The notes under the pieces: model-generated
Seen by the model: the letters and a program-made list of their open reading frames with translations, nothing else
Told to the model about the DNA's origin: nothing
Database searches by the model: none
Made by a program: the position numbers and the translations under genes
Shown here: in pieces, positions 48,528-62,467 of the stretch
Numbering within the stretch: the stretch's first letter is position 1
Layout of the letters: each line of letters starts with the position of its first letter
From: Lebetimonas natsushimae
GTDB taxonomy: Bacteria > Campylobacterota > Campylobacteria > Campylobacterales > Nautiliaceae
Direction of reading: 5' to 3'
Length of the DNA: 64,000 nucleotides
NCBI RefSeq assembly: GCF_002335445.1
Contig: NZ_BDME01000007.1
Location: forward strand, 1-64,000

Positions 48528-50354
48528 TTAAAATTTTAACATAAAATGATATTCAAAAACATTTTTTGAATTTTGATAATAATGCATATATTTAATATTA
48601 TATTTTTCACATATCTGTTTTACTATATTAAGTCCGATCCCCAGTCCTCTTTTATGAGTATGCTCTCTGTAATTTTTTTCAAAAATATTTTTTGAATCTT
48701 TTATCTTATCCCCTAGTGTTTCAAATTTCAATATATATTTATTTTTCTCTTTTTTTAAAGATATAAATATATCTTCGCCTTTTGAGTATTTAATTGAATT
48801 TGAAATATTATTATCAATAATTCTTTCAAGTTCTATTTTATTTATAATAAAAAACAGATTATTATCAATCTCACAGATAAATTTTTTATTATGTGATTTT
48901 GCAATCCTGCCAAAAAAATCGATTCTCTCCTTTAAAACTTCTGAAACATCGATATTTTCAGGTTTATATTCAACAACATTATTAGAAGAAATATATGCCA
49001 AATCCTCATAAGAATTGCTAAGCATAGAAACAGCCGCATCTATTTCATCTAAAATTTCCTCCTCATTGCAGGAATCCCTTAATAATTCTATATTTAACAA
49101 AATTACATTAAGGGGGGTTCTGATTTGATGAATGGTATCTACAATAAAACGTCTGTTTAAATATAAAAGCTGTCTATTTTTATTTATTTCGTCGTTTAAC
49201 TGTTTAAACAACATATTATAATTGCTTTTTAATTCAGCCAATTCCTTAATAAAAGAATCTTTCATCTGGCATTTTTTTCTTTCCTTAAATGCATTAACTA
49301 ATAGATTGATATTTTTAATAAAATATTTTTTAGCAAAAAAATAAAAAAACAAAATAAAAAATGTAATCAAAATAAGAATTATCAAAAAATTTTCAAATAA
49401 TTTTTTTTGTGATTGTTTTAAACTTGTCAAGTCAAAATCCATCTCTATTATTAACCTGTTGTCTTTATTGTTAACAATACCGTTAACTAATACAAACATT
49501 TTTAAACTGTTATCTTCCAGTTTATAAATAATATTATTATGCTTTTTAAAAATATTTATAATATAATCCATTATTTCTATACTGCTTTTTTTGGCAATAT
49601 CTTTATCTTCACTGAAATACAATAAAAAATTTTTTGAAAATGCCCATATTTTATTTAAAGGTAATTTTTTATCAAATCTTTTTTCAAAATTGACAGGATA
49701 AATTAAATATTTACTAACTAAATATAATTTTAAATCCTTAATTGCAGGTTTTACAAAATGATATATTTCTTTTAATTTGGGATAAATATCCAAAACATAA
49801 GCCAGCTGAAGTAAATATTTTCCATCATATGAACGTGTTAAATAATACTGTTTCAGATTTTTAGAAGCAACATCTAAATAAATAGGTGAAATATCTATTT
49901 TCTTTTTTTCATTAAAAACATCGTCTAAAATTTTTCTAAAAGCCGGAAATTTTCCCAAATCATATCCAATATCGGGAGTATATGTACCGTTTATTATTTT
50001 ATAATTTCTGTCTATCTGAAAAATTTCATATTTTCCAATATCCAAAGTGGAATTTAAAATTTTGGAAGCTTTTTGTATATTAAATTTACCGTTTTTATAA
50101 AATCCATTTAACCTAAACGTATTTTTTATATTTATTTTTTCATGTATTTTATAAATATAAAGGGATTTATCAAATATGTTTTTAAATTTGTCTTTTATAG
50201 TCAAAGCTTCTATTTTATGTTTATTTACAAAATTGTTAAATAAAATTTCTTTTGCTTTAAAATATTGAGCATACACTATTAAACTGATAATCAAAAAAAA
50301 GAAAAAGAAAAAGAAAAAAAGCAGTTCATTAATAGAAAATTTATGCTTTAACAA
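48528..50354 (-). CDS. Membrane sensor histidine kinase
   Basis: 608 aa. Two membrane spans (about residues 11-31 and 318-340) bracket a 285-aa extracytoplasmic sensor domain. HisKA has H409 in DTIHQIRTPLN; the ATPase domain keeps the N box (DNNISNSIKYS) and G2 box (RGLGIGLNIV), but the G1 Asp-x-Gly-x-Gly motif is degenerate (ETLGDK). The first helix is encoded by a purine tract that yields eight consecutive Phe. Overlaps its response regulator by 14 nt, so they form one system; the stimulus is unknown. Confidence 0.85.
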   Translation of the reverse strand: MLKHKFSINELLFFFFFFFFLIISLIVYAQYFKAKEILFNNFVNKHKIEALTIKDKFKNIFDKSLYIYKIHEKINIKNTFRLNGFYKNGKFNIQKASKILNSTLDIGKYEIFQIDRNYKIINGTYTPDIGYDLGKFPAFRKILDDVFNEKKKIDISPIYLDVASKNLKQYYLTRSYDGKYLLQLAYVLDIYPKLKEIYHFVKPAIKDLKLYLVSKYLIYPVNFEKRFDKKLPLNKIWAFSKNFLLYFSEDKDIAKKSSIEIMDYIINIFKKHNNIIYKLEDNSLKMFVLVNGIVNNKDNRLIIEMDFDLTSLKQSQKKLFENFLIILILITFFILFFYFFAKKYFIKNINLLVNAFKERKKCQMKDSFIKELAELKSNYNMLFKQLNDEINKNRQLLYLNRRFIVDTIHQIRTPLNVILLNIELLRDSCNEEEILDEIDAAVSMLSNSYEDLAYISSNNVVEYKPENIDVSEVLKERIDFFGRIAKSHNKKFICEIDNNLFFIINKIELERIIDNNISNSIKYSKGEDIFISLKKEKNKYILKFETLGDKIKDSKNIFEKNYREHTHKRGLGIGLNIVKQICEKYNIKYMHYYQNSKNVFEYHFMLKF

Positions 50355-59748: not shown

Positions 59749-60877
59749 ATGAATTTAATTCAGGGAATTGCCACAATTATAATCACACTTCTTGGAAGTG
59801 AAGTATTTATTGTCCCAGCAATCAGTGCAACATACAGCGGATGGGCTTCATTATTTGTATGGTTTTTAATGGCATTTATGATTTTACCGGTAGCTTTTGT
59901 ATTTGGAAAACTTGGAAAAATATATCCAAGTGCAGGAGAAAGTGCAACATTTGTGGGTGCGGCTTTCGAGAAAAAATTTGAAAAAGCAACATCTTTTTTA
60001 TACCTCTCCATAATACCTATCGGTCCACCGGTTGTAATAATTACTGCGGCATCATACCTTGCAGGAGCATTTGGACAAAAATATCTTATTGATTTTATTG
60101 TTTTTGCAACCATAATAATTCTAACATTAAATCTTTTATCACTAAATATTTCATCAAATATAAATATCTTTATTACATTTACAATAACAGCCATTATCAT
60201 CTGCTTTTTTATATATGCACTTTTTCAAAATTACCACATCACAAACCACAAATTACATATCATTAAAACTTTCGCAATTGTGTTTTGGTGTTTTGTAGGA
60301 ATAGAAGCATTAAGCCATATATCACACGAATTTAAAAAAGAAAATGATTTTTTTAAAGCGGTAATTATAGGAATAACAACAGTTGCATTTTTATATATGG
60401 CCGTAACTTTTGCGGTTTTGGTATTCAACGCATACGGCAATGAATCAAAAAACCTCCGCTCTCTTGTAATAATTGCATCAAAAATCATACCTTATACAGA
60501 CAAATTAATAGCATTTATCGCTTTTAGCATATGCATAATGGTCCTGAATTTATATGTTGCAGCTCTCACTCGTCTGGCAACCACTCTGAATATAAGGCTT
60601 TAAAAAAGCTCTTTTTATTATTGTGGGAATAATTTTTATTGTTAGTGTTTTGAAATTTAAACTCAATTTCAAAATAGATCTGCTTATCACCTACGCAAAC
60701 GGATTTTTGTATTAATCTATTTTTTTAGTTTCGCTGTCGGCATTAAAAATTTTAAAAAACAAAATATCTTTTTTTGCCGTTGTTTCAATGAGCTTAATTA
60801 TATTTACAATAGGATTTGATATGATTTATGCAGCAGTAACTTTTTTGATATTTATAATTTTACAAAGCAACGACTAA
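59749..60877 (+). pseudogene. Decayed YjeH-like amino-acid exporter (APC family)
   Basis: The intact N-terminal part (MNLIQGIATIIITLLGSEVF to LYVAALTRLA) has eight or nine membrane helices and matches YjeH-type methionine/branched-chain amino-acid exporters. After about 60575 the reading continues one frame over (NHSEYKALKK), then after the A-run at 60602-60607 in a third frame (ALFIIVGIIFIVSVL ... to FIILQSND at 60877), with an in-frame TAA at 60713-60715. So two frameshifts and one nonsense change interrupt the C-terminal third. A truncated 284-aa product is still possible. The promoter is intact. Confidence 0.75.
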
Positions 60878-61057
60878 ATATACACTTCAAAAATAAAAAT
60901 ATTACAGCTCAATGCTTCATTTTGCTAAAGCATCACTCAAATTTTACTAAAAATTGCAAACGCAAGCGCCCTAACGGGTCAAGTGCAATTTTTTTAACGT
61001 AAAAATTTCGTTAACTTCCGCTACGCTGTAATATTTTTACTTTTCCGTTATTTAGTC
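60872..61057. repeat. 186-bp nested inverted-repeat element
   Basis: Outer arms GACTAAATA (60872-60880 and its complement 61049-61057), main arms of 20 bp with one mismatch (AAAAATAAAAATATTACAGC at 60889-60908, complement at 61025-61044), and inside them further stems: ATGCTT/AAGCAT, AAAAATTGCA/TGCAATTTTT (60949-60958 with 60984-60993), CGC-AA-GCG, CCC-TAAC-GGG and TAACG/CGTTA. It contains no ORF. It could be a MITE, a structured RNA or a bidirectional terminator. The left arm includes the stop codon of the permease pseudogene. Confidence 0.65.
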
Positions 61058-61069
61058 AAAATCTTTTAC

Positions 61070-61093
61070 AAAAAAAGAGGTTTAAAAAACCTC
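61070..61093 (-). terminator. Intrinsic terminator of gltX
   Basis: Minus strand GAGGTTT-TTT-AAACCTC (61077-61093) followed by seven T. The stem contains the last gltX codons, and the TAA stop spans loop and 3' arm. Confidence 0.85.
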
Positions 61094-62467
61094 AAAACTC
61101 GCAAGTAATTTGCCTATTCTTTTAATTACCTCTTTTTGTCCTAAAACACTTAGCATTGCAGCAAGGTCAATTCCTTTGGTATCCCCTACCATTGCAATAC
61201 GAAGCGGAGGCATAAGTTCTCTAGGTTTAATTTGTTTTTTTTCTAAAAATTCATGCATTACATCATGCCAGTCTGTTGGAAGTTTTGGATTTTTATCTTC
61301 TAAAAACACCACAAATTCCCTTAAGTTGGCTAAAACTTCATCTTTTAAAAATTTTTTAACCGCTTTTTCATTATATTCGCTTGGGGCATTTAATATTTTT
61401 TCAATCTCTAAAGCCATCTCTTTTAGGGTTTTTACCCTCTCTTTAAGTTCATCTATTAAAATCTCTTTTCTATCATGATTTACTATATCAACTCCAAAAT
61501 CATCTCTAAGCAGTTTTTCTATTCTTTCATTTGAAGAATTTTTAATATAATGGCTATTTAACCAATCAAGCTTTTCTTTATTAAACCTACTAGGCGCTTT
61601 ATTTATATCTTTTGGGTCAAACAGATTTATCATCTCTTCTATAGAAAAAATTTCCTGGTCCCCATAAGACCATCCAAGACGCACTAAAAAGTTAAGCAAA
61701 GCTTCCGGAAGATATCCTTCTCTTTTGTATTCCATTACATCCACAGCACCGTCACGCTTGCTCATTTTACCGCCTTTTTCATTATGAATCATAGGCACAT
61801 GGTAAAATTTAGGCACATCCCAACCAAAAGCTTTATAAATCAAAATCTGTTTAAATGTATTTCTTAAATGGTCATCACCTCTTATGATATCAGTCATCCC
61901 CATTTCATGGTCGTCAATCACCACTACAAAATTATATGTAGGGGTCCCGTCACTCCTTGCTATAACAAAATCATCAATCTCCTTTGCTTCTACACACTGC
62001 AATCCCTTAACACCGTCTTCAAAACAGATTTTACCTTCAAGTGGTGCTTTAAATCTTATTACATAAGGTTTGTCAAGTTCACCTTTAAAATCTCTGTATT
62101 TTCTGATATCAATAGGAGGAGTTTCACCTTTCATTCTTGCATTTCTGATTGTTTCAAGCTCTTCTTTTGTCAGATAACATTTATAGGCAAGTCCTTTTTC
62201 TAAAAGCTCATTTATATATTTTTTATAAATATCAAATCTTTCACTCTGAAACACCACCTCATCGTCATAATTTAAATTAACCCAGTGAAATGCTTTAATT
62301 ATCGCATCAACTGCTTCCTTTTTGTTTCTGCTTAAATCTGTATCTTCAATTCTAAGTCTGAATTTTCCATTATTTTTTCTGGCCCAAAGCCAGTTAAATA
62401 GTGCAGTCCTAAGTCCTCCGATATGGAGATATCCCGTAGGAGATGGCGCAAATCTTGTAACAACCAT
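61082..62467 (-). CDS. gltX: Glutamyl-tRNA synthetase
   Basis: 461 aa class I synthetase: APSPTGYLHIGGLRTA (HIGH-like), zinc-less middle region, GGKMSKRDGA (KMSKS). Campylobacterota often carry two GltX paralogues, one specific for tRNA-Gln; which of the two this is cannot be told from the window. Extended -10 promoter at 62487-62495; terminator over the stop codon. Confidence 0.96.
   Translation of the reverse strand: MVVTRFAPSPTGYLHIGGLRTALFNWLWARKNNGKFRLRIEDTDLSRNKKEAVDAIIKAFHWVNLNYDDEVVFQSERFDIYKKYINELLEKGLAYKCYLTKEELETIRNARMKGETPPIDIRKYRDFKGELDKPYVIRFKAPLEGKICFEDGVKGLQCVEAKEIDDFVIARSDGTPTYNFVVVIDDHEMGMTDIIRGDDHLRNTFKQILIYKAFGWDVPKFYHVPMIHNEKGGKMSKRDGAVDVMEYKREGYLPEALLNFLVRLGWSYGDQEIFSIEEMINLFDPKDINKAPSRFNKEKLDWLNSHYIKNSSNERIEKLLRDDFGVDIVNHDRKEILIDELKERVKTLKEMALEIEKILNAPSEYNEKAVKKFLKDEVLANLREFVVFLEDKNPKLPTDWHDVMHEFLEKKQIKPRELMPPLRIAMVGDTKGIDLAAMLSVLGQKEVIKRIGKLLASFEVF

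Follow-up and report, generated by a model that had tools for sequence, protein, structure and literature searches.

Prokaryotic MITEs, as reviewed by Minnick in 2024 (PMC10969869), are short, A+T-rich intergenic repeats without ORFs that carry terminal inverted repeats (TIRs) related to the ends of ISs, are flanked by target duplications, form stable stem-loops, and occur in multiple copies. The same features are found in an element of the Nautiliaceae that lies between a permease pseudogene and the gltX gene in the 64,000-nt stretch of Lebetimonas natsushimae DNA analyzed here (the window). It differs from MITEs in general (PMC10969869) in that elements whose ends and duplication lengths are not the same contain one and the same core hairpin. 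In Acinetobacter, MITEAba12 is 113 bp long, produces 9-bp duplications, is reported to have only a weak secondary structure, and is mobilized by ISAba12, its co-resident autonomous partner (PMC6382973). Similarly to MITEAba12, whose interior is unrelated to that of the IS, the Nautiliaceae element is tied to an IS only by matching terminal repeats and duplication length (PMC6382973). Unlike MITEAba12, it is 198 bp long with 8-bp duplications, forms a strongly nested palindrome, and has no partner found in its genome.

The relevant ISs belong to the IS1 family, exemplified by ISCaa4 (PMC3196728) and by the ISAba3-like copies that bound an insert with 8-bp duplications (PMC6382973). The likeness to this family consists of two ORFs, an IS1-type DDE transposase, and 8-bp duplications (seen in the ISs of genome G002, see below), with ends that match those of the MITE. 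Unlike these ISs, the MITE is non-coding, and only the ends are held in common. Correia elements, RUP, BOX, and SPRITE are repeats of Neisseria and Streptococcus, the last one described as terminator-like (PMC10969869). By their descriptions, they resemble the present family in being dispersed intergenic palindromes and repeats that insert into one another; they differ from it in the hosts for which they are described (PMC10969869). The term “Campylobacter” is absent from the text of the 2024 MITE review (PMC10969869), and no earlier report of a MITE in these bacteria was found in the open literature (subscription papers and ISfinder lay outside the search). MITEs are a known kind of element; this MITE family and a core common to several element types appear to be new.

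Table 1. Features of the permease/gltX junction (window coordinates)
Feature	Position	Strand	Remarks
APC-type amino-acid permease pseudogene (PF13520), insertion host	59749..60865	+	frameshift near 60600, internal stop near 60713
gltX, intact, convergent neighbor	61082..62467	-	own terminator-like site at 61093-61077
Complete element, type I MITE	60866..61063	+ (orientation arbitrary)	198 bp; from copies, TIR, and 8-bp duplication
Left target-site duplication TTTTACAA	60858..60865	.	at the end of the permease frame; identical to 61064-61071
Right target-site duplication TTTTACAA	61064..61071	.	perfect copy of the left one
Left terminal inverted repeat AGCAACGACTAAAT	60866..60879	+	family consensus GGCACTGACTAAAT
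Right terminal inverted repeat ATTTAGTCAAAATC	61050..61063	+	consensus ATTTAGTCAGTGCC
Inner arm, left AAAAATAAAAATATTACAGC	60889..60908	+	from inverted-repeat comparison
Inner arm, right GCTGTAATATTTTTACTTTT	61025..61044	+	from inverted-repeat comparison
Side hairpin ATGCTT..AAGCAT	60912..60933	+	from the fold; weakly conserved
Core hairpin	60941..61005	+	outer stem, asymmetric internal loop T / TTAAC, A5:T5 tract, inner stem, two apical mini-hairpins
Apical mini-hairpin CGCAAGCG	60961..60968	+	replaced by a ~90-nt branched module in long copies
Apical mini-hairpin CCC-TAAC-GGG	60969..60978	+	helix 3 of the counted structure
Side hairpin TTAACG..CGTTAA	60994..61014	+	alternative pairing; overlaps the core

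A first-pass annotation of the window had recognized the element but placed its limits at 60872 and 61057 (186 bp); the actual ends lie farther out and are followed on both sides by the 8-bp duplications (Table 1). The outer 9-bp pair that it described is genuine and forms the inner part of the 14-bp TIR. The 20-nt arm pair with a single mismatch is also present: the arms are 95% complementary and represent the longest inverted repeat of its kind in the window. The only other pair that reaches 18 bp, at 49389-49641, was rejected as a second element, being an A/T-rich match within a coding region that belongs to no repeat family; four first-order Markov controls contained no inverted repeats of 18 bp or longer. 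Low G+C content makes A/T inverted repeats frequent, as a chance palindrome in A+T-rich intergenic DNA would require, but the Markov controls lack a comparable arm pair, and homologous copies occupy many sites; the copies refute this explanation. The interior of the element is a nested palindrome, and a covariance model of its core (R1) scores the window copy at 77.9 bits. A 211-nt stretch consisting of the element and its flanks folds far better than its shuffled versions on either strand (z = -5.9 for plus, z = -4.4 for minus). As stated in the first-pass annotation, there is no ORF inside the element (none of 60 or more aa). The deviating composition claimed there is not borne out, as the overall G+C content is 31.3% in the element and 31.8% in the window, with 29.2% and 33.2% in the two flanks. 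An Rfam scan of the window returned only tRNAs, and no covariance model in it matched the element.

The permease gene had been described as a dead exporter and indeed contains a frameshift as well as an internal stop that disrupt it: homologous permeases of 383 to 386 aa align to it in two frames, and the alignment includes the internal stop. The same permease-gltX junction is found without the element in four relatives (G005, G007, G008, and G017), and in the three of these that were checked, the permease frame is open up to gltX (383 to 386 residues). When the window flanks are joined without the element and one copy of the duplication, the permease tail reads ..ILQKKR, close to ..FQKRG in G007, while the occupied site reads ..ILQSND-stop, with the TAA supplied by the left TIR. 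An intact permease homologue adjoins gltX in several relatives, whereas the congener has a decayed-looking one, yet without the element. Because of that congeneric copy, the decay of the permease need not result from the insertion. The earlier suggestion of an insertion at the end of a decaying gene is right about the place; the decay may have begun before or after the insertion. The observation that gltX has a terminator of its own beside the element agrees with the terminator-like site listed in Table 1.

The genome to which the window belongs (G000; 1.64 Mb in 8 contigs) was searched with a 201-bp query and found to contain at least 10 related copies elsewhere (best E value, 2.6e-53), with 80 to 87% identity over 170 to 180 bp. 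Five further short copies are located at C1:315726, C6:36878, C1:572136, C2:164450, and C2:384847, and five long copies (two at C7:82-83 kb and one each at C1:442702, C1:446709, and C2:434525) align to the query in two halves with ∼90 nt of extra sequence between them. The search also recovered at least 13 copies from the congener, and further ones from other Nautiliaceae genera. In an exact-pattern scan of named genomes, matches came from a Nautiliaceae MAG and a Campylobacterales bacterium MAG; the exact pattern was not matched in viral contigs. The presence of other copies in the same genome and its relatives, together with target duplications, had been proposed as a test for a MITE; many copies are present in both.

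Alignment of 19 copies from two congeneric genomes revealed recurring ends, GGCACTGACTAAAT ... ATTTAGTCAGTGCC. With one mismatch allowed, 13 of 21 genomes contained the 14-mer TIR, frequently in pairs that face each other at a distance of 80 to 250 bp, while a reversed control pattern had almost no matches. Among 41 TIR-bounded candidate pairs, which include some spurious pairings, the flanks just outside the ends were identical in at least 7 of 8 positions (k = 8) in 13 cases; in 300 permutations of this 8-bp test, the mean was 0.8 such cases and the highest count was 4, and none of the other lengths examined between 5 and 11 produced a comparable peak. The duplication at the window copy, TTTTACAA, is a perfect one; exact 8-mer repeats at the spacing of the element occur at 7 of 63762 window positions (∼1 in 9000). 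Its TIR tips, however, have decayed, with 3 and 4 mismatches of 14, and a perfect duplication beside decayed tips is slightly odd for an old insertion. In genome G018, two near-identical type II elements on contigs C66 and C30 (L091 and L092) share the duplication CTTTTCTT and similar near flanks; this pair possibly reflects a duplicated region or a mixture of strains in the MAG.

The feature is a MITE of a new IS1-type family. It is shorter than ∼600 bp and non-coding, it has TIRs and a target duplication, and it exists in multiple copies and has unoccupied counterparts; the MITE candidacy raised in the first-pass annotation has therefore held up, favored by the duplications of 8 bp, by the four relatives in which the site is unoccupied, and by the IS family whose ends match. 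A partner transposase with the same ends was not found in G000. A co-resident partner is usual for MITEs but does not define them; its lack lowers the claim of current mobility.

The trail to the IS family leads through a remnant in G002, in which a reading frame stops at exactly GGCACTGACTAAAT (14/14). This genome contains six full ISs of 684 bp with the ends GGCACTGACCTAAA, and the four copies that were read have perfect 8-bp duplications: AGTTACTG, GTAATTCT, AGAGTTAT, and ATAATTTT. A 715-bp IS with the ends GACACTGACTAAAT / ATTTAGTCAGTGCC, identical to the consensus at 13 and all 14 of 14 positions, respectively, is found in G032. The ISs of both genomes encode a short HTH ORF and a DDE ORF that match IS1-family models, although with low scores. 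The scores against PF03400 are 24.6 bits (G002, just above the cut-off) and 21.3 bits (G032, below the cut-off), and those against NF033558 are 35.3 and 32.5 bits, respectively, far under its 100-bit cut-off. G002 also carries a MITE (L109) with a perfect GGCACTGACTAAAT at one end and the 8-bp duplication AAACAATA. When the MITE and IS ends are read side by side, the terminal repeat is the only part in common.

The MITE thus shares its ends with an IS1-family IS and has the same duplication length, and it is very probable that the element is non-autonomous, with ends of the IS1-family type, and that an IS1-family transposase acting in trans is its most likely mover. As with MITEAba12, it is from the ends and the duplication length, here read from ISs of two other genera (G002 and G032), that such a transposase can be taken to have moved the window copy. 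In this scheme, a two-ORF, DDE-type transposase would act in trans on the 14-bp ends of the MITE and join it to a staggered target, giving rise to the 8-bp duplication. The MITE inserted at the tail-to-tail junction of the permease gene and gltX, where its end now provides the stop codon of the permease frame; the element likely has no required role at this locus. Neither the PF03400 model nor the G002 protein found a match in the window's genome or in the congener (G001). With no transposase found in the window's genome, its copies look orphaned and are probably immobile relics. The structured sequence next to gltX is explained in this way, and a Nautiliaceae MITE family with a likely IS1-type mobilizer is defined.

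The element could instead be the gene of a multibranched structured non-coding RNA with one strand transcribed, the other candidate of the first-pass annotation. The strong folding would fit such an RNA, as would the pattern of compensatory changes. RNAalifold did not recover the outer arms when applied to 36 type I copies; the structure was therefore assigned manually and its pairs were counted. It is paired in 92.9% of the cells in these 36 copies, with 46 two-sided changes, whereas shuffles gave 15.2 and slid versions no more than 11; in 26 diverse cores, 93.8% are paired and 83 of 513 cells have two-sided changes, compared to 30.4 in shuffles and at most 45 in slid versions, although these controls only partly remove the relatedness of the copies. 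Two-sided changes affect all 7 pairs of the outer stem of the core, and one pair of the 20-nt arm helix is G-C, T-A, or A-T in different copies. Nearly invariant across the cores are the A5:T5 tract and the T / TTAAC asymmetric loop. Templated correction of imperfect palindromes is another possible source of matched changes.

An RNA functional on one strand would tolerate G-U pairs on that strand, so an excess of them could be expected. Instead, plus-strand G-T and A-C mismatches number 30 and 31 in the arms, 25 and 30 in the side hairpins, and 9 and 16 in the core alignment A2, respectively. With the wobble counts balanced in this way, the matched changes do not single out an RNA, although the compensatory changes named in the first-pass annotation as support for one are present. 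The dispersal of the repeat with its target duplications and the lack of an Rfam match also argue against this explanation, as does the weak bias in orientation relative to tandem neighboring genes (17 copies of 23 in one orientation and 6 in the other), and a structured RNA is accordingly improbable.

In two genomes, G056 (L184-L196) and G087 (L237-L246), the outer arms vary between the copies within the genome but are complementary within each copy, as in TTGGCATTGTACAC/GCGTACAATGCCAA and CTGTTCTTTTATGC/GCATAAAAGAACAG. This may be due either to evolution by compensatory changes or to templated correction of the palindromes. The locus-specific arms of G056 were also considered as inverted target duplications; this was rejected after inspection of seven copies, since several of them have arms of related sequence in which both sides vary.

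A bidirectional intrinsic terminator cassette, in which the core would stop transcription both ways and the element would be kept as an insulator of its neighbors, is suggested by the A5-stem-loop-stem-T7 architecture of the core, by the G+C-rich core of G058 (AAAAACCGC..GCGGTTTTTT), by the equivalence of the strands to which the wobble counts point, and by the location of the window copy between convergent genes. However, among the type I, type II, and related copies with a clear context, 10 lie between convergent, 9 between divergent, and 23 between tandem genes, a count that is based on simple stop-free stretches, with many cases unclear, and excludes only a strong preference. Terminator-like placement at gene 3' ends was rejected given the absence of a convergent excess. 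Further, the terminator scan reports only the gltX site and not the window core, and termination would require neither the T / TTAAC loop, which is conserved, nor the outer stem. Such a cassette is therefore unlikely, though it merits consideration. With no G-T excess and no convergent preference, neither a one-strand RNA nor a positioned terminator is supported.

The core also occurs outside the window's family. Of 399 genomes of the order, 54 have matches to its covariance model; they represent 20 of 87 genera, and several contain at least a dozen copies. The model is selective, as 286 of the 298 high-quality genomes sampled from the phylum have no core match at E <= 1e-5. Reading of 40 core loci showed that the core is also located within elements that bear other ends. 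In the complete 2.2-Mb genome G058, ends of the CTGACCTTACGCA type occur 103 times and bound elements of ∼165 bp. Copies of this type from G058, G023, and G087 have a 7-bp duplication matching in at least 6 of 7 positions in 11 of 25 cases (7 of them perfect), whereas the control had a mean of 1.0 and a maximum of 5. The duplication of 7 bp by these elements, compared to 8 bp in the window's family, indicates that elements of at least two kinds, with different footprints, contain the core. A mobilizer of the CTGACCTTACGCA-end elements was not found in G058.

A hairpin core with a conserved asymmetric internal loop that is common to many elements would also be expected of REP/BIME-like palindromes moved as single-stranded DNA by RAYT or by an IS200/IS605-type transposase. 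These elements, however, have true TIRs and fixed-length target duplications (8 bp here and 7 bp in the G058 type), and single-strand hairpin transposition by HUH enzymes is not known to leave a target duplication, which makes such an origin of the whole element highly improbable.

It can be tentatively proposed, at somewhat less than even chances, that the ∼65-nt core is a conserved structural module common to several Campylobacterota MITE families that differ in their ends and duplication lengths (8 bp with GGCACTGACTAAAT, 7 bp with CTGACCTTACGCA, and others). If so, the core would be kept by compensatory change across about 20 genera and would have a job independent of any one transposase, for example in forming a cruciform in DNA, binding a protein, or terminating transcription in both directions. 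In the MITE of the window, the nested and co-varying core counts as a conserved passenger module, possibly maintained as a DNA palindrome or a two-way terminator-like hairpin. If nothing but the ends of MITEs mattered, a co-varying core in mobile elements with different ends and footprints would be difficult to account for, and selected structure in the interiors of bacterial MITEs becomes testable.

Several other observations concern the variety of these elements. G058 (L227-L236) has roughly 50 palindromic elements with CTGACCTTACGCA ends and 7-bp duplications, and in some of its copies the two ends carry an identical variant (CCGACC.. at 745119/745275 and 1338253/1338405; ..CGTA at 1484331/1484483). 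In the long copies, one apical mini-hairpin is replaced by the ∼90-nt module, which contains a similar unit in reverse orientation (stem, GTTAA opposite TA, A:T tract, and stem). This branched module, AGGAGAGCCGTTAA..TTGTCGTTTTTAGGCTCGCACGGCG.., is seen in L041 (1951-3144), L042 (2003-2267), L043 (2026-2292), and L122 (G011), and its reverse complement occurs in a type II element from a different genus. Finally, L251-L256, L262-L264, and L247-L250 represent yet another type of element, whose ends are close to GTTCTGAAAAATTAC / GTAATTTTTCAGAG and which has an extra hairpin (GGCCTAAAGGCC or GCCTTCGGC) at the place of the TTAAC of other cores.
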